A stretch of DNA of 64,000 nt, taken from assembly GCA_020073445.1 (NCBI GenBank), contig JAIQFE010000025.1, positions 1-64,000 of the forward strand. Direction: 5' to 3'. This DNA comes from Terriglobia bacterium. Lineage in GTDB: Bacteria > Acidobacteriota > Terriglobia > Bryobacterales > Bryobacteraceae. Shown here one piece after another: positions 50,652 to 59,872 of the stretch. The notes below the pieces were generated by a model that was not told the origin of the DNA, made no database searches, and saw only the letters and a program-made list of their open reading frames with translations. Positions within the stretch are counted from its first letter, which is position 1; each line of letters opens with the position of its first letter. Position numbers and translations under genes: made by a program.

Positions 50652-53331
50652 CCGGATCTTTCCGCTCTGGATCGAAACCCAATTCAGCAACCGCCGCAGC
50701 GGCCTTCTGCGCGTCGATCTTACCCTCGCGAGCCAGCGCCGACAACGTAGCCTGGACGATCGCCTCGGCCGAGATCTCGAAGAACGCCCGCAGATGCTCG
50801 CGATTCTCGCTGCGCCCGAACCCGTCCGTCCCGAGCGAATGCAGCCGGCCCGGCAACCACTGAGCGAGCTGATCCGGGATGATCTTCATGTAATCCGACG
50901 ATGCGATGACCGGACCGTTCGACCCTTCGAGCGCCGTTACGATGTACGGCGTCTTGCGAGACTCCGCCGGATGCAACCGATTCCAGCGCTCGGTCTCGAG
51001 AGCGTCGCGGCGCAGTTCGTTGTAGCTGGTCACCGACCAGACATCCGTCGCCACCTGATAGCGCTCGGCCAGAATCTGCTGGGCTTTCAGCGCCTCATTC
51101 AACATGGGACCGCTGCCGAACAACTGAGCGACAGCCGGACCGTTCGCCGCAGGCTTGTACTTGTACAGCCCCTTCAGAATGCCTTCGCGAATGCCTTCGC
51201 GCTCCGGCATCGGAGGCTGGACGTAGTTCTCGTTATAGACGGTCAGGTAGTAGAAGTGATCTTCCATTTCCTGATACATGCGGCGGATGCCGTCCTGCAC
51301 GATCACCGCCAGCTCATACGCATACGCCGGATCGTACGTGATGCACGTGGGCACGGTGCTGGCATGCACTGGACTGTGGCCGTCCTGGTGCTGCAGTCCC
51401 TCGCCCAGCAGCGTCGTGCGCCCGGCCGTGCCGCCCATCAGGAATCCCTTGCCGCGCGAATCGGCGAACGCCCAGATCAGGTCGCCCACGCGCTGGAATC
51501 CGAACATCGAATAGTAGATGAAGAACGGGATCATCGGCACGCCATAATTCGCGTACGCGGTGCCCGCGGCGATACACGAAGCCATTGACCCGGCTTCGGT
51601 GATGCCTTCTTCCAGAATCTGCCCGTCCTGGGCTTCCTTGTAATACAGCAGGACGTTCGAGTCGACCGGTTTATACTTCTGGCCCTGGCTCGCATAAATG
51701 CCGCGCTCCCGGAACAGCGACTCCATTCCGAAAGTCCGGGCTTCATCGGGAACAATCGGCACCACCAGCTTGCCGATCTCGGTCTTGAATAGCGCTTTCA
51801 GGATGCTGACGAAGGCAGCGGTAGTAGAGGCCTCGCGGTCGCGCGAGCCGCCCAAGGCATCGCTGAAAATCTCGAGCGGCGGAGCCTTGATCTCGATCGG
51901 CTTGACCTTGCGCTCGGGCAGGTATCCGCCCTGGGCTTCGATTCGTCCCCGCAGATACTTCATCTCCGGAGAGTCCTCCGCCGGACGGTGAAAATCAATG
52001 TGCTCGCAGTTCTCGTCGGTGAGAGGCAGATCGAAGCGGTCCCGAATCTTCATCAAGTCGGCGCCGCTGAGCTTTTTCTGCTGGTGCGCCGTCATCCTGC
52101 CTTCGGCGACTTCGCCGAGCCCATAGCCCTTGACCGTCTTGGACAGGATCACCGTGGGCTGGCCCTGGGTCATCATGGCGCGCCGGTAGGCGTTGAATAC
52201 TTTTATCGGGTCGAGACCTCCGCGGCGAAGACCCCAGACTTCGTCATCGCTCATGTGCTCCACCAACTTGAGCAGCTCCGGATACTTGCCGAAAAATTCC
52301 TTTCTAACGTACGCGCCGTCATGCGCGCGGAAGCTCTGATATTCGCCGTCGACGCACTCATGCATGCGCTTGATCAGCAGTCCGCTCGAATCGCGGGCCA
52401 GCAGCTCATCCCAGCCCGAGCCCCAGACCACCTTGATGACGTTCCAACCGGCGCCCAGGAACGCGGCTTCCAGCTCCTGAATGATATGCCCGTTGCCGCG
52501 CACCGGACCATCCAGGCGCTGCAAGTTGCAGTTCACCACGAAGATCAGATTGTCGAGCCTCTCGCGCGCACCCAACGTGATGGCTCCCAGCGATTCAGGC
52601 TCGTCGGTTTCACCGTCGCCCAGGAACGCCCAAACTTTGCGGCCGGTTTGAGGGATGACGCCACGATTCTCCAGATACCGCATGAAGCGAGCCTGATAGA
52701 TGGCCGCGATCGGGCCGAGTCCCATCGACACGGTCGGAAACTGCCAGAAGTTCGGCATCAGCCAGGGGTGCGGATACGAGGACAGCCCGGGATGATCCCG
52801 CAGCTCATGGCGGAAGTTTTCGAGGTGCTTCTCGCTCAATCGGCCTTCGAGATACGCGCGCCCGTAGACTCCCGGGGAAGCGTGCCCCTGGAAGTACACG
52901 AAATCGCCCGGCAATTTGGTCCCGTCAGGACCCGGATACGAGCCCCGGAAGAAGTGGTTGTACCCGACCTCGAGCATGGTCGCCAAAGACGCATAGGTCG
53001 CCAGGTGCCCGCCGATGTTGGCGTCGTATTTATTGGCGCGAACCACCATGGCGGTGGCGTTCCAGCGGATCAGGCTCTTGATGCGGCGCTCGATGGCGCG
53101 GTCGCCCGGATAGGCGACTTCTTCCTCGGGCGGAATGGTGTTGATATACGGAGTATTCCAACGCAGGGGAACTTGGACGCCGAGGTTTGCGGCGCGTTCC
53201 ATCAACCGCTCAAGCAGGTAGCTGGCCCGGTCAGGCCCTGCCTCGTCGATCATCTCGTCGAGGGCTTCCACCCACTCGGAAGTCTCCTGGGGATTGAGGT
53301 CGTCAGGAGCGTCTACTTTGGCTTTCAACAT
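50641..53331 (-). CDS. aceE: Pyruvate dehydrogenase E1 component (homodimeric type)
   Basis: 896 residues from ATG 53331, seven codons inside the longest frame (53352), as MLKAKVDAPDD fits a normal cytoplasmic start. It uses thiamine diphosphate and Mg2+ to decarboxylate pyruvate and acetylate the lipoyl group of E2. Family markers: the ThDP motif GDGETDEPES to VVNCNLQRLDGPVRGNG, the PDH loop GHASPGVYGRAYLEGRL, and GGTAGRTTLLGEGLQHQDGHS in the C-terminal half. The length is close to E. coli AceE (887). No aceF or lpd is adjacent. Confidence 0.97.
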   Translation of the reverse strand: MLKAKVDAPDDLNPQETSEWVEALDEMIDEAGPDRASYLLERLMERAANLGVQVPLRWNTPYINTIPPEEEVAYPGDRAIERRIKSLIRWNATAMVVRANKYDANIGGHLATYASLATMLEVGYNHFFRGSYPGPDGTKLPGDFVYFQGHASPGVYGRAYLEGRLSEKHLENFRHELRDHPGLSSYPHPWLMPNFWQFPTVSMGLGPIAAIYQARFMRYLENRGVIPQTGRKVWAFLGDGETDEPESLGAITLGARERLDNLIFVVNCNLQRLDGPVRGNGHIIQELEAAFLGAGWNVIKVVWGSGWDELLARDSSGLLIKRMHECVDGEYQSFRAHDGAYVRKEFFGKYPELLKLVEHMSDDEVWGLRRGGLDPIKVFNAYRRAMMTQGQPTVILSKTVKGYGLGEVAEGRMTAHQQKKLSGADLMKIRDRFDLPLTDENCEHIDFHRPAEDSPEMKYLRGRIEAQGGYLPERKVKPIEIKAPPLEIFSDALGGSRDREASTTAAFVSILKALFKTEIGKLVVPIVPDEARTFGMESLFRERGIYASQGQKYKPVDSNVLLYYKEAQDGQILEEGITEAGSMASCIAAGTAYANYGVPMIPFFIYYSMFGFQRVGDLIWAFADSRGKGFLMGGTAGRTTLLGEGLQHQDGHSPVHASTVPTCITYDPAYAYELAVIVQDGIRRMYQEMEDHFYYLTVYNENYVQPPMPEREGIREGILKGLYKYKPAANGPAVAQLFGSGPMLNEALKAQQILAERYQVATDVWSVTSYNELRRDALETERWNRLHPAESRKTPYIVTALEGSNGPVIASSDYMKIIPDQLAQWLPGRLHSLGTDGFGRSENREHLRAFFEISAEAIVQATLSALAREGKIDAQKAAAAVAELGFDPERKDPART

Positions 53332-53448
53332 GGGGTAATTCCAAGGTACCATCCCTACCGGCCAGCCCGCGATACGCCTTCCGGCGGCCCCAAACCCGCC
53401 ATCACCTTAGAGTGGTGGCATACACTGACTTGTGCATAAACTGTATAG

Positions 53449-53859
53449 ATGCGCGCCCTGCAGATTATTCTCGGTGTAGTTCTGGTCGGGGGCTTGATCG
53501 CTACCGTCTGGTTCATGCTCACCGCGCCAACCACGCCGCCGGCTCCGGCCCCGAAGGCGGTGCCCGTCGAAACCGCACCACTCCGGACCGACATCCCGCC
53601 GCCGGAAACCATCGTTTTCGACAACAAGTACGGCAAGTCCACGTTCACCCATAAGCTGCACTATGAGCGGGTGAATGGCGATTGCACCGTCTGCCACACC
53701 AAAATCTTTCCGCAGTCCCGGGCTCCCATCAACTACGGAAAAGCCCTGCACCGGGCGGCCGAGGCCGAAGGAACCGCCTGCGCAAGCTGCCATCGGGTGG
53801 GGGGAACTTCCTTCGCCGCTGACAGCCACTGCGTTAAGTGCCACGAACCAAAGCAGTAA
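53449..53859 (+). CDS. Membrane-anchored triheme cytochrome c (c7/c3-like)
   Basis: 136 residues. One N-terminal membrane helix (5-23), a Pro/Ala linker, then three heme motifs: CTVCH (79-83), CASCH (111-115) and CVKCH (128-132). FTHKLHYERVNGDC, with histidines as distal ligands, is typical of the cytochrome c7/c3 superfamily (three hemes, bis-His). It likely carries electrons on the periplasmic face. First gene of the 14-gene run that contains the sigma factor and the ccm genes; the sigma gene starts 40 bp downstream. Confidence 0.9.
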   Translation: MRALQIILGVVLVGGLIATVWFMLTAPTTPPAPAPKAVPVETAPLRTDIPPPETIVFDNKYGKSTFTHKLHYERVNGDCTVCHTKIFPQSRAPINYGKALHRAAEAEGTACASCHRVGGTSFAADSHCVKCHEPKQ

Positions 53860-53899
53860 AGTCCAAGGGGTGTAGAGTGGAGGTGTAGCGTGGCCTCCC

Positions 53900-54568
53900 A
53901 TGCCTCCCAACGAAAAACAAGGGAAGAAACCTCCGGCCTCCGGCGTCATACCAAGTGATTTAGGCATGGTCCTGGACTTGGGTCACCGCGACGTGAATCA
54001 CCTTGATGTGATACAGGCCTGTCAACGTGGTGACGAGGATGCCTTTCGTGTGCTCTTTGAAACTCATAAGGATCGGGTCTACTCCATCGCGCTTCGTTAT
54101 GCGGGGGATTCGGCGGCCGCGATGGATATCGCCCAGGATACGTTCCTGAAGCTTCTATCGAGCATCCAGCAGTTCCGGGGGGATGCGAGCTTCGAATCCT
54201 GGCTGTACCGGCTGGTGGTGAACGCTTGCCTGGATTATCACCGCAAGCGGCGGCGGTTTTTGCCCTTGTTGGACGACGCGCTCGACGTGTTCCGTGCGCC
54301 CCGGGAAAGCACTTTGCATGACCTGCTCCGGGAAGAGCAGGAGGAACGTGTCCAGCAGGTAGTGGCCCAGTTGCCCGAAGAACAGCGGATCGTAGTGGTG
54401 ATGCGTTATACCGAAGGCCTCTCGTATGAAGAAATCGCGGACGCGTTGGGTTGCCGCAGAGGCACCGTAGCGTCGCGTCTGAACCGCGCCCACAAGGCGC
54501 TGGAGCGGCGGCTATCGAATCTTCGAAAGGTAAGACAGGGACAGGGAACGGTAGAGCAGGAAAGGTAA
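53900..54568 (+). CDS. ECF-type RNA polymerase sigma factor
   Basis: 222 residues. Region 2 (about 38-110) has DEDAFRVLFETHKDRVYSIALRYAG, DIAQDTFLKLLSSIQQFRGDASFESWLYRLVVNACLDYHRKR; region 4 (about 150-205) has LPEEQRIVVVMRYTEGLSYEEIADALGCRRGTVASRLNRAHKAL. The 30-residue N-terminal extension is unusual but hydrophilic. It directs transcription of a small regulon. The gene 7 bp downstream is a membrane protein in the position of an anti-sigma factor. Target genes could be the flanking cytochrome and ccm genes. Confidence 0.95.
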   Translation: MPPNEKQGKKPPASGVIPSDLGMVLDLGHRDVNHLDVIQACQRGDEDAFRVLFETHKDRVYSIALRYAGDSAAAMDIAQDTFLKLLSSIQQFRGDASFESWLYRLVVNACLDYHRKRRRFLPLLDDALDVFRAPRESTLHDLLREEQEERVQQVVAQLPEEQRIVVVMRYTEGLSYEEIADALGCRRGTVASRLNRAHKALERRLSNLRKVRQGQGTVEQER

Positions 54569-54575
54569 GACGGCA

Positions 54576-55196
54576 ATGAAGAACGACTGGAACGAGCCCG
54601 AACTGAGCCGGCATCTTGGCCCGGTCAAGGCGCCCGACGAGCTCTGGGACCGCGTGCACGGCGCCCAGACAGTTCATCAGTTGCGGCCTAGCCGTGGAAT
54701 GACGTGGCAGTGGGCCGCAGCCGCGCTGGCAACCGTAGCGGTCGTCGCGGGAATCACGGTCTGGCAGAATCGCGACCTCAGCGGTGAGGAACGCGCTGTC
54801 CGAGCGTTGAGCCGCACGCCGGAGCAATTGGAATTTCGCTCGGAAAACCTGACCGAGGTCCGAACCTGGGTTAAATCCGGAACCGGTCTCGATGTTCCCA
54901 TGCCGGGTCACACTTCCCCGGCGGTCCGCATGATCGGAGCCCATGTAAATCGTGCCGGCGTCCCGACGGCGGAGATCGCCTATCGGGTGGGCGATGCGGA
55001 CGTGTCGCTGGTGGTATCCAAGATCCCCATGGACGGCGATGGGCGGCATCAGTTCGTAAAGAGCGGTTCCTACCACGGGTCCAGCTTCCAGTCCTGGACC
55101 ATGCGTGGCCAGATGTACACTATTGCTTCGGCCGATGCCAAGGTGGGATGCCTCCTGTGCCATAGCGCGGGAGCTCCCCGGACGAGCGTGAACTGA
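54576..55196 (+). CDS. Putative anti-sigma factor with extracytoplasmic c-type heme motif
   Basis: 206 residues. A short cytoplasmic N-terminus with APDELWDRVH (a motif I associate with acidobacterial anti-sigma proteins), one membrane helix (43-63), and an extracytoplasmic domain (64-206). That domain is beta-rich and has no zinc-anti-sigma HxxxCxxC motif, but ends with a canonical heme-binding site CLLCH (192-196) followed by SAGAPR. Heme would be covalently attached after export by the Ccm machinery encoded downstream. Position after an ECF sigma gene and single-span topology support the anti-sigma role; heme as the sensed group is inference. Confidence 0.7.
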   Translation: MKNDWNEPELSRHLGPVKAPDELWDRVHGAQTVHQLRPSRGMTWQWAAAALATVAVVAGITVWQNRDLSGEERAVRALSRTPEQLEFRSENLTEVRTWVKSGTGLDVPMPGHTSPAVRMIGAHVNRAGVPTAEIAYRVGDADVSLVVSKIPMDGDGRHQFVKSGSYHGSSFQSWTMRGQMYTIASADAKVGCLLCHSAGAPRTSVN

Positions 55197-55253
55197 TGAC
55201 GTTAAGCGGTATACTGGTATCGATCGAAGTACGTACTGGGCGAGGGATTTCCG

Positions 55254-55685
55254 ATGCATAAGAACATCAAGTTTGGCCTGATTATCGTCGTGATTCTGGG
55301 CACCCTGGGATGGCTCGCGGCCGGAGGCATCAGCCAGACCGCCAGCTACTACAAGGAAATCGCCGAGCTGAATAAACTCGCGCCCAGCGAAAAGGTCGAC
55401 AAGCGCCTGCGCGTGGGCGGGGACGTCGAGCTCAACTCGATCAGCCGCGAGGGGCGTGACGTGCATTTCGTCCTGGTCCAGGAAAAAGACGGCGTGAAGA
55501 ACCGCCTGAACGTTGTCTACAGCGGAATCGATCCGCTGCCCGATACGTTCAAGGACAACGCACCGTGCCAGGCTCTGGTCGATGGCAAGCTCGGCTCCGA
55601 TAACGTGTTTCACGCCACCAAGCTCCAGGCGAAGTGCGCTTCGAAGTATGAAGCCAAGCCGGTGGCTCCGCTCACTCGCGGTTAA
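55254..55685 (+). CDS. ccmE: Cytochrome c-type biogenesis protein CcmE (CxxxY variant)
   Basis: 143 residues. CcmE is the periplasmic heme chaperone of System I, with an N-terminal membrane helix (6-25) and an OB-fold beta barrel (RLRVGGDVELNSI, HFVLVQEKDGVKNRLNVVYSGIDPLPDTFKDN, GKLGSDNVFHATKLQAKCASKYE). The residue that binds heme covalently is normally His in HxxxY (E. coli H130). Here the same place has Cys128 with Tyr132, the CxxxY variant known in archaea and some Desulfovibrio. Followed 22 bp later by ccmF. Confidence 0.92.
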   Translation: MHKNIKFGLIIVVILGTLGWLAAGGISQTASYYKEIAELNKLAPSEKVDKRLRVGGDVELNSISREGRDVHFVLVQEKDGVKNRLNVVYSGIDPLPDTFKDNAPCQALVDGKLGSDNVFHATKLQAKCASKYEAKPVAPLTRG

Positions 55686-55707
55686 ACTTTTCTTCGGAAT
55701 CTAAACT

Positions 55708-57747
55708 ATGGAAAATATCGGCGCGTTGGCGATTCTCCTCGCGTTCTGTTTCGCCGTGTACGCGATCATCGGATCGCTGGTGGGGAAATGGGCGAAGCGT
55801 CCGTTCCTGGCTCTGAGCGCGCAGCGCGCGGTCTACTCGGTGTGGGCCCTGCTGACCTCGGCGGTCGGGATTCTCCTCTACTCGCTGATCAAGGGCGATT
55901 ACCGGATGGCCTATGTGTGGGCCACCAGCAATCACACCATGGAGCTGCAGTACAAGGTGGCGGCCTGGTGGGGCGGCCAGGAAGGCTCGCTGCTGTTGTG
56001 GTCCTGGCTGCTGGCGACCTACAGCGCGATCATCGTCTTCCAAAACCGCCGCAAGTTCCGCGACATGATGCCGTACGTGGTCGGGGTGCTGATGTTCACC
56101 CAGACCTTCTTCCTGATCCTGAACGGATTCGTGGCGAGTCCCTTCAAGATGATCGCCGCCGGCCGCGGCATCGTCGATATCGGCGACGGCCAGGGATTGA
56201 ATCCGCTGCTCCAATACTGGACCATGGTGATCCATCCGCCCATGCTGTATCTGGGCTACGTCGGATTCATCGCGCCGTTTGCGTTTGCGATCGCGTCACT
56301 GGCCACCAAGCAGCCCGGAGATGAGTGGATCAAGACCACCCGCCGATGGACGCTGGTCACCTGGATGTTCCAGACCACCGGCGTTCTGCTCGGTATGGGC
56401 TGGGCATACGCGGTACTCGGATGGGGCGGCTACTGGGGATGGGATCCAGTGGAGAACGCTTCGCTACTACCTTGGATTACAGCGACTGCCTTCTTACATT
56501 CAGTCATGATGCAGGAAAAGAAGGGCATGATGAAGGTCTGGAACATGGTGCTGGTTTCCTCCACCTTCTTCCTGTGCATCTTCGGAACATTCCTTACCCG
56601 TAGTGGCGTGGTCCAGTCGGTACACGCATTCTCGGAAGGCCCCATCGGGAAGTATTTCGTCGGCTTCCTGGCAATCGGCATCACTTTGACGGTGTACCTG
56701 ATCCTCAGCCGCCTGGAATACCTCAAGAGCGAATCGCAGATGGAGAGCGTTCTCTCCCGCGAATCGAGCTTCATGTTCAATAACCTGATTCTGCTCGCGG
56801 GTTGCTTCGCGGTGCTCTGGGGCACTCTGTTCCCGGTGATCACCGAAGCCATCATGGGCGAGAAGATCAGCGTCGATAAGCCGTTCTTCAATCGCGTGAA
56901 CATTCCCATCGGCATGTTCCTGCTGCTGCTCACCGGAGTCGGTCCGCTGATCGCCTGGCGCCGCAGCTCGTTCGAAAGCCTGAAGCGGGCGTTTATGTGG
57001 CCGGCCCTCTCGGGCTTGTTCGTGTCCGCGGCCTTGTTCGCGGCCGGGATCCGCAGCTTCTACGCGCTGATGTCCTTCGGGCTGTGCGCGTTCGTGCTGA
57101 TTACCGTCGCGATCGAGTTCTTCAAGGGCGCGAGAGCGATCAGCGGCAAGAGCGGAAAGAACCTGCTGGTCTCGATGTTCGAGCTGACGCATCGCAACAC
57201 ACGCCGGTACGGCGGGTATCTGGTGCACGTCGGCATCGTGATCCTGTTCGTGGGATTCACGGGGGCGGCTTTCAATCAGGACACCACCGTGGAACTGCCG
57301 CAGGGCGGATCGATGACCCTGGGCGCATATACGCTTAAGGTCGTCGGATTCGAAGAGGGCGAGAACGAGAACTACAGCTGGGGCCGGCCTAAGATCGCGG
57401 TGACCAAGTACGGCGAAGAGCTCCCCATGATGATGCCGGAGCAGCGCTTCTACTTCGCATCCCAGACGCCGACGCATGAAATCGCTCTGCGCCGCCGCCT
57501 GAACGAAGACCTCTATATCAACTACGCCGGGCCCGGAACCAACAACAGCAACGTCATCCTGCAGGTGTACGTGAATCCGCTGGTGAGCTGGGTGTGGATC
57601 GGCTACTGGGTGGTGCTGTTCGGCACCATCATCTGCCTGATCCCGAGCAAGACCAAGCTGGTGTTCCCGAGAACGGAAGTCGTGGGCATGACCAGCAAGC
57701 ACGCAGGCAAGCCCGCGCAAGTCGGAACGAATGAAAACGAAAGCTAG
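55708..57747 (+). CDS. ccmF: Heme lyase CcmF
   Basis: 679 residues with about 14-15 membrane helices. CcmF ligates heme to apocytochrome CxxCH motifs. The WWD heme-handling signature is in GGYWGWDPVENASLLPWITATAFLHS near 238-260. Conserved WGGQEGSLLLWSWLLATYS near 87 and the GIVILFVGFTGAAF segment near 510 also fit. A soluble loop before the last helix (about 530-630) matches the family. The 3' end overlaps ccmH by 17 bp. Confidence 0.96.
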   Translation: MENIGALAILLAFCFAVYAIIGSLVGKWAKRPFLALSAQRAVYSVWALLTSAVGILLYSLIKGDYRMAYVWATSNHTMELQYKVAAWWGGQEGSLLLWSWLLATYSAIIVFQNRRKFRDMMPYVVGVLMFTQTFFLILNGFVASPFKMIAAGRGIVDIGDGQGLNPLLQYWTMVIHPPMLYLGYVGFIAPFAFAIASLATKQPGDEWIKTTRRWTLVTWMFQTTGVLLGMGWAYAVLGWGGYWGWDPVENASLLPWITATAFLHSVMMQEKKGMMKVWNMVLVSSTFFLCIFGTFLTRSGVVQSVHAFSEGPIGKYFVGFLAIGITLTVYLILSRLEYLKSESQMESVLSRESSFMFNNLILLAGCFAVLWGTLFPVITEAIMGEKISVDKPFFNRVNIPIGMFLLLLTGVGPLIAWRRSSFESLKRAFMWPALSGLFVSAALFAAGIRSFYALMSFGLCAFVLITVAIEFFKGARAISGKSGKNLLVSMFELTHRNTRRYGGYLVHVGIVILFVGFTGAAFNQDTTVELPQGGSMTLGAYTLKVVGFEEGENENYSWGRPKIAVTKYGEELPMMMPEQRFYFASQTPTHEIALRRRLNEDLYINYAGPGTNNSNVILQVYVNPLVSWVWIGYWVVLFGTIICLIPSKTKLVFPRTEVVGMTSKHAGKPAQVGTNENES

Positions 57748-58195
57748 TCTACTGGTGCTCCTGGCCACGGCCCTGTGCCTGGCCCAGAGCGCCACCGAAT
57801 ACGAAAGTCCGGCGGTGAATCACATCGCCGGCATGCTCAACTGCAATTGCGGATGCCATCTGCGCATGGACTGCGTAATGCCGCCCACGGGAATCTGCCC
57901 GGTGTGTAAGGCCGCCAAGATTCGCATCGCGAACATGAAGAAGGAAGGCAAATCGGACCAGCAGGTCCTGGACCAGTTTGTCGCCGAAAACGGCGCCAGC
58001 GTTCTGGCGGTTTCGCCTGGCCCGTTCGGAAACGCGGCCCCCTATCTCGCGCTCGCCCTAGGGCTGGGCGTAGTGTTATTGGCGATCCGGTATTACCGCC
58101 ACGTTCGCCCCGCACCGGCAGTTCCCGCCGGAGACGATGCCGCGCTCTCGCGTTATCATGATCAAATCGAAAAAGATCTGTCCAAGCTTGATTAG
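57731..58195 (+). CDS. ccmH: Cytochrome c-type biogenesis protein CcmH, atypical cysteine motif
   Basis: 154 residues: signal peptide or membrane helix (1-19), a periplasmic three-helix-bundle domain and a C-terminal helix (about 97-117), then a short basic/acidic tail. CcmH normally has LRCxxCQ; here the site reads MLNCNCGCHLRMDC with C38, C40, C42, C48 and then CPVC (C56, C59). The EGKSDQQVLDQFVAENGASVLA segment is typical. It should keep apocytochrome cysteines reduced for ligation by CcmF. The extra cysteines may form additional thiol pairs or bind metal. Confidence 0.85.
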   Translation: MKTKASLLVLLATALCLAQSATEYESPAVNHIAGMLNCNCGCHLRMDCVMPPTGICPVCKAAKIRIANMKKEGKSDQQVLDQFVAENGASVLAVSPGPFGNAAPYLALALGLGVVLLAIRYYRHVRPAPAVPAGDDAALSRYHDQIEKDLSKLD

Positions 58196-58229: not shown

Positions 58230-59480
58230 ATGCCGTTCCGCAGCGAGTTCATTTCCGGAGTGTGCGCAGCCACATGGTTGGCCGCTCTGGGAGCCGCTCC
58301 AAGTGTGGCGCAAGGTGTGGCGCAACCGGCGCGTAAGGATCCCGTCAGCCGACTGGAGACGCGGCTCGAACGCGGGGAAGCGGCTTTGCATTTTCATCCC
58401 GGGAGTGGAGGATATCTGCCCAACCTCCTCCGAGAATTGGATATCAACGTCGACTCGCAAGTGCTGGTTTTTTCCAAGACCAGTCTCCAGCAGGACCACA
58501 TTTCGCCGCGAAATCCGCGTGCGATTTACTTCAACGACACCGTCTCCGTAGGATCGGTCCCCGGCGGCAAACTCCTGGAACTGGCGTCTCTAGACCCCGT
58601 CCGCGGAGTTGTGTTTCACACCCTCGACGTGCAGGAATCCGCCGAGCCGCGATTCAAGAGCAAAGTTGAGGAATGCACTATGTGCCACAACTCCGTCAGC
58701 ACTTTTGCTCCCGGGTTGATGGTTGCGACAGTGTATCCCGGGCCGGATGGAGCCCCCATTTATCTGGGAGCGAAATCCCTTTTCAACACCACGGATGATC
58801 GATCCCCTTTTGAAAGCCGCTGGGGCGGATGGTACGTGACGGGGACTCATGGGTCACAACACCATATGGGCAACACGGTGGCGATTGATTCGAGCCATCC
58901 GCTCGAAATGGACGAGGCGGGCACGCAGAATCGCCGCACGCTAACGGACAAGATCGATGTGAGCCAGTATTTAACTTCGACCAGTGACATCGTGGCGCTG
59001 ATGACACTGGAGCATCAGACTCAGATGACCAATCTGATCACCAGTATTGCCGCGAGAACTCGCGCGCAAAGTGTTAAGCCCAACGTCAAGTCCGATGCGG
59101 GGATGACCGCAGCCATCGAAGAACTGGTGAATTATATGCTCTTCATCGACGAAGCTCCCCTGCGCGAACCTGTAGCGGGCGTATCGACATTCACAAAAAC
59201 CTTCCCCCAGCGAGGACCGCGCGACCGCCAGGGCCGATCCCTGCGCGATTTCGATCTTCAGCGGCGCCTGTTCCGGTATCCTGTCAGCTACATGATTTAC
59301 TCCGAGTCTTTCGACGCGCTTCCCGATCCCATACGGGAGCAGATACTCAAGCGGGTTTTCGATGTCCTGGCCGCGGACGAAAGCGGTGACCGGCGCGCCG
59401 CTTTGGAAATTCTGGTGGATACCAAGCCGAATTTGCCCGAGTATTGGAAGAGCGCCAGCCTGAGGCATCCGACAAGATAA
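58230..59480 (+). CDS. Secreted monoheme protein of unknown function in the ccm cluster
   Basis: 416 residues with a signal peptide (about 1-28, ending SVAQG). A single heme motif CTMCHN at 149-153 is placed in EECTMCHNSVSTFAPG. Other notable segments: AIYFNDTVSVGSVPGG, LGAKSLFNTTDDRSPFESRWGGWYVTGTHGSQHHMGN, and a helical C-terminal half (TSDIVALMTLEHQTQMTNLI). No known domain beyond the heme site. The stop overlaps the next start by one base. It may be a substrate or an accessory factor of the maturation machinery. Confidence 0.7.
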   Translation: MPFRSEFISGVCAATWLAALGAAPSVAQGVAQPARKDPVSRLETRLERGEAALHFHPGSGGYLPNLLRELDINVDSQVLVFSKTSLQQDHISPRNPRAIYFNDTVSVGSVPGGKLLELASLDPVRGVVFHTLDVQESAEPRFKSKVEECTMCHNSVSTFAPGLMVATVYPGPDGAPIYLGAKSLFNTTDDRSPFESRWGGWYVTGTHGSQHHMGNTVAIDSSHPLEMDEAGTQNRRTLTDKIDVSQYLTSTSDIVALMTLEHQTQMTNLITSIAARTRAQSVKPNVKSDAGMTAAIEELVNYMLFIDEAPLREPVAGVSTFTKTFPQRGPRDRQGRSLRDFDLQRRLFRYPVSYMIYSESFDALPDPIREQILKRVFDVLAADESGDRRAALEILVDTKPNLPEYWKSASLRHPTR

Positions 59481-59872
59481 TGCTGCTCGCCGCTGCCATC
59501 CTACTCATCGCGGTCACCGTGCTGTTCACATTTTCCATTCGCGATAAGGACATGCCGGCTCCCGAGCCGCTCTCCCCTACCCGTCACCTGGATGAGCGCC
59601 GCGCCGCGATCTATGAGAACCTGCGCGATCTGCAATTCGAATATCGCGTCGGCAAACTCTCCGACGCGGATTATCAGCAGACCAAGGTCGGGTTGCAGAA
59701 GGAACTGGCGGGAGTGCTGGCGGAGATCGAAAAGGTGAGTTCCGGTGCTCCGCCGACACCAGTGAAGGTGGAGACTCCTAAAGTTACGCCTGGAACCGTC
59801 TGCCCGCATTGCAGTGCGACTTTTCCCCAACCTTTGAAGTTCTGCGGCGAGTGCGGCAAGGAGATGTCATGA
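59480..59872 (+). CDS. Small membrane protein with C-terminal zinc ribbon
   Basis: 130 residues from ATG 59480, which shares one base with the preceding stop. One membrane helix (about 2-18), an alpha-helical region (HLDERRAAIYENLRDLQFEYRVGKLSDADYQQTKVGLQKEL, about 35-80), a Pro-rich linker and a zinc ribbon CPHC...CGEC (C108, C111, C122, C125). The helical part resembles the CcmI/CycH N-terminal motif (DLEFDYRVGKLSEEDY), so it may be a reduced CcmI-like assembly factor. Overlaps the next gene by 4 bp. Confidence 0.75.
   Translation: MLLAAAILLIAVTVLFTFSIRDKDMPAPEPLSPTRHLDERRAAIYENLRDLQFEYRVGKLSDADYQQTKVGLQKELAGVLAEIEKVSSGAPPTPVKVETPKVTPGTVCPHCSATFPQPLKFCGECGKEMS

Follow-up and report, generated by a model that had tools for sequence, protein, structure and literature searches.

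A candidate heme-gated anti-sigma factor beside cytochrome c maturation genes in Acidobacteriota

Can a bacterium sense covalently bound heme outside its cytoplasmic membrane by means of an anti-sigma factor? The question is raised by a locus of a Terriglobia soil bacterium (assembly GCA_020073445.1) of the phylum Acidobacteriota. It lies in the window analyzed here, positions 1 to 64,000 of contig JAIQFE010000025.1, in which genes were called by Pfam and NCBIfam profile scans. A gene for an extracytoplasmic function (ECF) sigma factor is followed by one for a small membrane protein resembling an anti-sigma factor; its exported part carries CLLCH, a predicted c-type heme attachment site, and cytochrome c maturation (ccm) genes come next (Table 1). 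A preliminary description had listed a triheme cytochrome, the ECF sigma factor, a 7-bp gap, one membrane helix, CLLCH at residues 192 to 196 and downstream ccm genes, and all of these are present. Sequence comparison leads us to propose a membrane-anchored anti-sigma factor in which c-type heme on the exported C-terminal CxxCH would act as the gate that holds or frees the ECF sigma factor, and we put the probability of this at roughly 0.5. The exported CxxCH is kept amid loss of other parts, is linked to the sigma gene, and lies beside ccm or peroxidase genes, which argues for c-type heme as the sensory part.

In the window protein, CLLCH is followed by ten residues to the end of the chain. 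An 11-row alignment, whose members are 32 to 76% identical to the window protein, has 14 invariant positions, and C192, L194, C195, and H196 belong to them. The usual zinc-anti-sigma motif is missing, as had been stated: HxxxCxxC is absent, and there is no zf-HC2 match. We refer to proteins of this kind as class A; their CxxCH lies on the predicted outer side, judging from the position of the helix.

The motif travels with the sigma gene. We searched 150 genomes of the family with the sigma protein and obtained 29 places in 27 genomes. The gene after sigma encodes a C-terminal CxxCH in 24 of the 29 by script, and also in G149, where the script picked the wrong open reading frame (ORF) and the correct one ends in CKLCHSL. 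Among places selected by a sigma identity of at least 56%, 25 of 26 encode the motif; in the remaining one, G094, the protein is divided between two contigs and Ns cover the motif, so it is counted without a call. A lack of CxxCH in orthologues, one of the outcomes that would have refuted the preliminary description, is thus not what these 25 places show. The three sigma-selected places lacking CxxCH hold the most distant sigma factors (48 to 52% identity) and are followed by a zf-HC2/FecR anti-sigma (L072), a protein that is FecR-like by eye (L071), and a protein with no Pfam match (L070). With genus members found via the anti-sigma protein, the class-A places rise to 34, one per genome, and 33 have CxxCH (32 by script, whose G094 match is in the wrong frame, plus G149). 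In 33 of the 34 the gene comes immediately after the sigma gene or overlaps it; G094 is broken over two contigs. Among the loci found by profile (29 of 30 translated), 21 hold CxxCH; the eight without it are the broken G094 gene (L032), the distant place L070 (as L036), and six weaker matches that are other proteins (L034, L037, L039, L040, L042, and L043). The motif scans covered the phylum Acidobacteriota, and the contig scan covered close relatives.

Other anti-sigma factors do not share this tail. The window's genome holds 18 zf-HC2 anti-sigma frames (12 score above the Pfam cut-off), and an exported CxxCH is missing from every one; the zinc motif of one contains CSTCH. An outgroup search matched 10 of 396 genomes of the phylum, of which two belong to the window's genus; none of the eight sigma loci left outside the family has a CxxCH tail, one of them (L142) running off its stretch. 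Six of these eight carry zf-HC2 and FecR over cut-offs, one zf-HC2 with VIT/VWA, and one FecR below its cut-off.

Class-A sequence outside the membrane varies widely. Six proteins of only 80 to 103 amino acids, which we call minis, consist of the N-terminal segment, one membrane helix, a short tail, CxxCH, two residues, and a stop. Since they keep so little, the indispensable exported part is, as judged from these sequences, the CxxCH motif and not the domain. Each of the six tails contains a single additional His, which could serve as second axial ligand; His158 of the window protein is invariant in a 7-row alignment, and at least one further His is present in each of 32 class-A tails measured. 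Because these four residues of CLLCH (C192, L194, C195, and H196) are invariant in 11 rows and the motif survives loss of the rest of the exported domain, its conservation appears to be beyond chance.

A second group of proteins has the same tail. Three of them (L011, L031, and L033), the seeds of what we call class B, combine a zinc-finger anti-sigma domain with a C-terminal CxxCH. A profile search found 12 places in 11 of 297 genomes of the phylum, and all 12 proteins end in CxxCH, a count with a mild bias from a profile built on CxxCH-bearing rows; the weaker match L037, with an N-terminus that is HxxxCxxC-like by eye, has no CxxCH. Classes A and B align with an hhalign E of 1.4e-15 over the helix, beta domain, and CxxCH only, not over the N-terminal region. 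Pfam finds zf-HC2 (HxxxCxxC) in all nine class-B rows scanned, of 15; the tenth row of that alignment, the window protein, is without it. Against PDB, class B matches RsiW (E=2.8e-8), and on sequence grounds it is clearly a class of anti-sigma factors.

Class B points to what the heme might report. A heme peroxidase gene is divergent to the sigma gene in 9 of 15 class-B loci (six of the 12 profile matches and all three seeds). Seven of the nine peroxidases are di-heme CCP/MauG-like and two are KatG. Two of the di-heme enzymes are CCP_MauG, and five form a family of 465 to 486 amino acids with two CxxCH, in which Pfam gives four no match and the fifth only sub-cut-off ones, and NCBIfam a sub-cut-off MauG match in the three tested; the one member run against PDB matches the di-heme peroxidase 1iqc (E=1.3e-7). 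By eye, signal-peptide-like starts suggest that the class-B peroxidases are exported. Among these, the KatG proteins beside class-B anti-sigma genes at L158 and L159 have such an N-terminus by eye and are perhaps exported. The peroxidase queries found nothing in 18 zf-HC2 control loci, 11 related-sigma loci with other anti-sigmas, and 25 class-A loci, searched over stretches of about 2.4 to 3.1, 3.3 to 3.6, and 5.2 to 12.6 kb, respectively; class-B stretches were 5 to 9.5 kb, and all nine peroxidases already lie within loci of 3.5 to 3.9 kb. A promoter pattern, GGAAT(A/T)-N-GTGT(T/G), faces the class-B sigma gene in 9 of 15 loci, the divergent gene in eight, and both in six; all eight divergent genes are peroxidases, out of the nine. 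Of 22 matches in 124 kb, 17 fall in these regions against a shuffle expectation of 0.025; the pattern was derived from the same regions, so this is not an independent test. One class-B query protein found no relatives on plasmids at E<=1e-5. These data hint that what is sensed, in class B at least, may be heme redox or peroxide state.

In an alternative for both classes, the heme tail would act as a natural microperoxidase that senses redox state or peroxide, and oxidized c-heme would free sigma for peroxidases in class B or for repair of heme attachment in class A. The excess of divergent peroxidases over all three comparison sets speaks for it, as does the promoter facing eight of them, with the caveat on its derivation. 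Against it, peroxidases are missing from all 25 class-A loci and from six of the 15 class-B loci, the linkage could equally mean heme supply to di-heme peroxidases, and the fact that microperoxidases react with peroxide enters as general background. We regard this alternative as somewhat unlikely.

Can the cells put heme on the tail? CcmF is found in 41 of the 48 genomes of either class, including all 34 of class A, and ResB in the remaining seven; none of four CcmF genomes tested for ResB has it. With one or the other in each, every one of the 48 genomes is predicted to be capable of joining heme to an outer-face CxxCH. System I adds heme even to short CxxCH peptides, according to an excerpt of PMC3884852 that cites Braun and Thony-Meyer 2004. 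The same data bear on the idea that CxxCH is a thiol/disulfide switch or a metal site and the anti-sigma a periplasmic thiol sensor. There is a parallel in OsrA of Bradyrhizobium, in which, according to an excerpt of PMC3420878, a periplasm-exposed Cys is needed for release of sigma by peroxide. A CxxC switch, however, has no need of the His and the fixed spacing that are kept in 25 of 26 class-A and 12 of 12 class-B places, and linkage to ccm and di-heme peroxidases and the presence of a heme attachment system in each of the 48 genomes also argue against it, which makes a thiol sensor improbable.

The class-A pair is often found beside ccm genes. They are linked in 16 of 34 class-A places, representing four genera, and G094 would bring a fifth. 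In 14 places ccmE comes after the anti-sigma gene, with ccmF next in 13; in G010 the contig ends. In the other two (G146 and G098), both minis, ccmF follows without ccmE. The same arrangement is seen after all three mini or split anti-sigma genes L081, L084, and L092 (G146, G098, and G094), with ccmF of G094 lying after the second half of the split gene on another contig. Since a second CcmF is present elsewhere in G098 and G094, the adjoining ccmF is possibly a dedicated heme lyase copy. The order sigma, anti-sigma, ccmE, ccmF, ccmH, ccmI is kept in six loci, L111 to L116 (same contigs as L002 to L007). The record of L116, CALQCC020000001.1, is titled Bordetella parapertussis and carries an acidobacterial locus; it is probably a mislabelled metagenome-assembled genome. 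The ccm linkage, together with the weak anti-sigma score of the window protein, could also fit a small membrane protein with a heme tag, either an electron carrier or a Ccm accessory, that neighbors sigma by chance, but this is very improbable for a gene that lies immediately after sigma or overlaps it in 33 of 34 places, including loci without ccm, and whose class-B homologue has a clear zf-HC2 anti-sigma domain and matches RsiW.

We then considered how the sigma gene itself is expressed. The window sigma has sigma-70 regions 2 and 4 only, which fits an ECF sigma factor. Of the 34 class-A loci, 30 have a relaxed form of the sigma promoter pattern of Table 1 upstream of the sigma gene (the exceptions are G004, G079, G156, and G103), which points to autoregulation, and the strict pattern has one match in the window and none in 100 shuffles. 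Because the conserved promoter sits inside the ORF listed from 53900, translation most likely starts at M23 (MVLDLGHRDV) rather than at the ATG at 53900. M23 is the next ATG after the promoter and matches the starts of relatives, such as L010, L065, and L066. Of the coordinates given earlier, only this start needs to be moved.

A working model of the heme-gated anti-sigma factor can be drawn from this. Heme would be covalently attached to the tail CxxCH after export, and the N-terminal segment would retain the ECF sigma factor in the cytoplasm. The state of the heme outside, attached or missing, intact or oxidized, would determine whether sigma is held or freed. Freed sigma would transcribe its own sigma/anti-sigma operon and, where the genes are linked as in the window, would add read-through of ccmE-F-H-I above a basal ccmE promoter. 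In class A the signal would be that heme is not loaded onto the tail or is lost from it, a sign that the capacity for cytochrome c maturation runs short. We favor absence of heme as the most likely class-A signal, related to maturation, and heme chemistry, redox or peroxide, as that of class B. Of this model, the gene pairing, the predicted topology, the conserved motif, the sigma promoter, and the synteny are seen in the sequences; heme attachment, sigma binding, the direction of the switch, autoregulation, and the effect on ccm are inferred.

Several results weigh against this model. The N-terminal region of the window protein matches the NCBIfam antisigma model with an E of 1.3e-4, below the cut-off. 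An AF2 model, run on seven sequences with a mean predicted local distance difference test (pLDDT) of 61.9, has its N-terminal 66 residues under 50, and confidence drops to about 48 at CxxCH. In whole genomes, matches to the class-A sigma promoter pattern number 18 against 15 and 23 against 35 for a reversed-pattern control, with no clear excess, so either the class-A regulon seems to be very small or the pattern is not strict enough. Related sigma factors paired with zf-HC2/FecR anti-sigmas have the same promoter type, and matches therefore cannot be assigned to the window's sigma alone. No ccm gene adjoins the pair in 17 of 34 class-A places; for two of these, G103 and G104, only about 400 bp of contig remain beyond the pair and ccm regions lie elsewhere. 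In the window and six relatives, ccmE has its own TATACT/TATAAT, 26 to 44 bp before the ATG, and sigma may thus add ccm transcription by read-through only. The promoter precedes unlinked ccm genes in 2 of 12 class-A regions (G112 and G177) against 1 of 20 control regions, no clear enrichment; 4 of 16 class-A and 2 of 22 control regions with no located ccm start or less than 250 bp upstream were dropped, and the comparison leaves out L208, L211, L213, and L214.

A full sigma-70 two-hexamer site was not found in 53300 to 55800, and the separate ccm regions L195 to L212 gave no sigma or anti-sigma match, nor did those of G103 and G104. Promoter matches in G107 and G075 had suggested control of an unlinked ccmF in trans; they lie inside ccmE, where they encode KIQAKCASK (frame by eye), and are artefacts that the above counts for unlinked ccm genes exclude. 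The preliminary description had proposed to test whether CxxCH occurs together with the sigma gene and the ccm genes: the first association holds, and the second is seen in 16 of 34 places. Its proposed feedback on cytochrome c maturation gains from a linkage that recurs in four genera, and direct control of ccm is weakened by the ccmE element, the unlinked places, and the coding artefacts.

Of the 18 whole-genome matches, seven are the sigma promoter itself. A sigma-type promoter also begins about 36 to 37 bp before a gene for a small secreted monoheme cytochrome in two genomes (L098 and L099), where this gene adjoins an IscA-like one (label by eye), and an exported methyltransferase-like gene (by eye) is preceded by one at 38 and 55 bp in L101 and L102, of one genus. 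Since the totals are not clearly above the reversed-pattern control, these genes are only leads to a wider class-A regulon. As for the related sigma factors (L137 to L144, L072, L172, L186, and L187), they pair with zf-HC2/FecR anti-sigmas, mostly with the same promoter type, and so represent a related sigma with a different sensor. The promoter lies before the sigma gene in L137 to L141, L143, L144, and L186 and directly after the anti-sigma gene in L172 and L187. A similar motif is present in seven of the eight outgroup sigma loci, L138 and L144 being the most divergent.

In the AF2 model of the window protein, residues 71 to 190 have block means of 71 to 87, except 60 at residues 151 to 160, and a beta domain is followed by a last helix, 188 to 195, which holds most of CxxCH. 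Foldseek against PDB gave no structural match at E<=0.001; RseB/MucB ranked first (probability 1.00, E 0.016, TM score 0.32), a similarity of the modeled domain that is no more than suggestive.

Table 1. Features of the sigma/anti-sigma locus in the window
Feature	Position	Strand	Evidence
Triheme c7-type cytochrome	53449..53859	+	Pfam Cytochrome_C7 E=4.5e-9; NCBIfam TIGR04257 E=3.5e-11
ECF-type promoter of sigma gene	53921..53953	+	Motif GGGAAGAAA-N-CGTCATA, common to relatives
ECF sigma factor	53966..54568	+	Listed ORF from 53900, probable start M23; Sigma70_r2 E=8e-22, r4_2 E=6e-18
Class-A single-helix membrane anti-sigma-like protein, 206 amino acids	54576..55196	+	C-terminal CxxCH; 7 bp after sigma ORF
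N-terminal putative sigma-binding segment	54576..54710	+	Pattern L..HLG.V.AP..LW..V; retained down to minis
Transmembrane helix, residues about 46-64	54711..54767	+	Hydropathy; AF2 helix 47-64, low confidence
Extracytoplasmic helix and beta domain	54849..55130	+	AF2 model; weak RseB/MucB fold match
His158, candidate second axial ligand	55047..55049	+	Invariant in 7-row alignment
CLLCH, predicted c-type heme attachment site, residues 192-196	55149..55163	+	C192, L194, C195, H196 invariant in 11 rows
TATACT, conserved -10-like element before ccmE	55210..55215	+	TATACT/TATAAT also in 6 relatives
ccmE, CxxxY variant (KCASKYEA)	55254..55685	+	Pfam CcmE E=1.3e-19
ccmF heme lyase	55708..57747	+	Pfam CcmF_C E=1.5e-61
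CcmH-like protein	57731..58195	+	Pfam CcmH E=3.3e-4, below cut-off
CcmI-like protein	59444..59872	+	NCBIfam TIGR03142 E=1.3e-4, below cut-off

The triheme cytochrome, taken earlier for a partner or target of the system, has its gene upstream of the sigma promoter. No copy was found close to sigma in L114 or L116, and in L115 the two are separated. The cytochrome is probably a neighbor outside the system. In sum, the original observation is confirmed and a heme-gated anti-sigma factor is partly supported, while the triheme partner is abandoned and direct ccm feedback is weakened. The ccm genes have features of their own. The heme-binding residue of canonical CcmE is a His, and the window CcmE has a Cys at this position; CcmH is expected to have a simple redox CxxC motif, and the CcmH-like protein shows NCNCGCHLRMDC at that place. 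A 416-amino-acid ORF between ccmH and ccmI (58230 to 59480) has one CxxCH (CTMCH), gave no Pfam or NCBIfam match at E<=1, and is unmatched in the six ccm loci L111 to L116.

Membrane anti-sigma factors are well known; what would be new is the proposed c-type heme cofactor on one, for which we know of no precedent. The locus resembles those of class I membrane ECF anti-sigmas of the RsiW, RseA, and RskA type in having sigma before anti-sigma, an N-terminal cytoplasmic segment, one helix, an extracytoplasmic part, and a conserved sigma promoter; unlike in these, the exported part ends in CxxCH, class A has no zinc motif, and minis lack a sensor domain. The words heme and cytochrome do not occur in the main text of either a review (PMC8103513) or an article on class I anti-sigmas (PMC7406223). 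RseB/MucB, periplasmic regulators of sigma-E, gave the top but weak fold match for the beta domain, but here that domain is within the membrane protein itself and has a CxxCH tail. Domains of the sCache_heme type (DUF3365/Tll0287; Geobacter GSU0582) are likewise extracytoplasmic sensors that acquired CxxCH, and c-heme sensor domains are known on kinases and chemoreceptors; they have another fold and other outputs, and the word sigma does not occur in that text of PMC12889525, the source for these statements. In E. coli, according to an excerpt of PMC10845959, covalent heme missing from the c-type protein TorC feeds back on transcription via TorS, but this involves a histidine kinase and a separate cytochrome, whereas here the anti-sigma itself bears the motif. 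HasS/HasI and HxuR/HxuI also connect heme to an ECF sigma via an anti-sigma, but an outer-membrane receptor senses the heme, and excerpts of PMC11442138 and PMC12670364 describe no covalent heme on the anti-sigma. In the partial texts searched, with most subscription journals outside coverage, we found no anti-sigma linked to c-type heme, CxxCH, cytochrome c maturation, or peroxidase.

A broader idea, which we hold only tentatively, is that covalent c-type heme on anti-sigmas may be a general periplasmic sensor across Acidobacteriota. Loading or oxidation of a microperoxidase-like tail would release ECF sigma factors, with class A steering maturation and class B peroxidases, and the minimal form would be 80 residues comprising a sigma-binding segment, a helix, and a heme tag. 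For class B, the promoter facing both sigma and peroxidase in six loci allows regulon and inducer to be predicted at once, and a protein of about 80 residues, as in the natural minis, would suffice to test the idea. To our knowledge, how bacteria sense production of c-type cytochromes or oxidation of periplasmic heme proteins is largely open. If true, gating of an anti-sigma factor by covalent heme would explain in direct molecular terms how cytochrome c maturation or heme oxidation is sensed.

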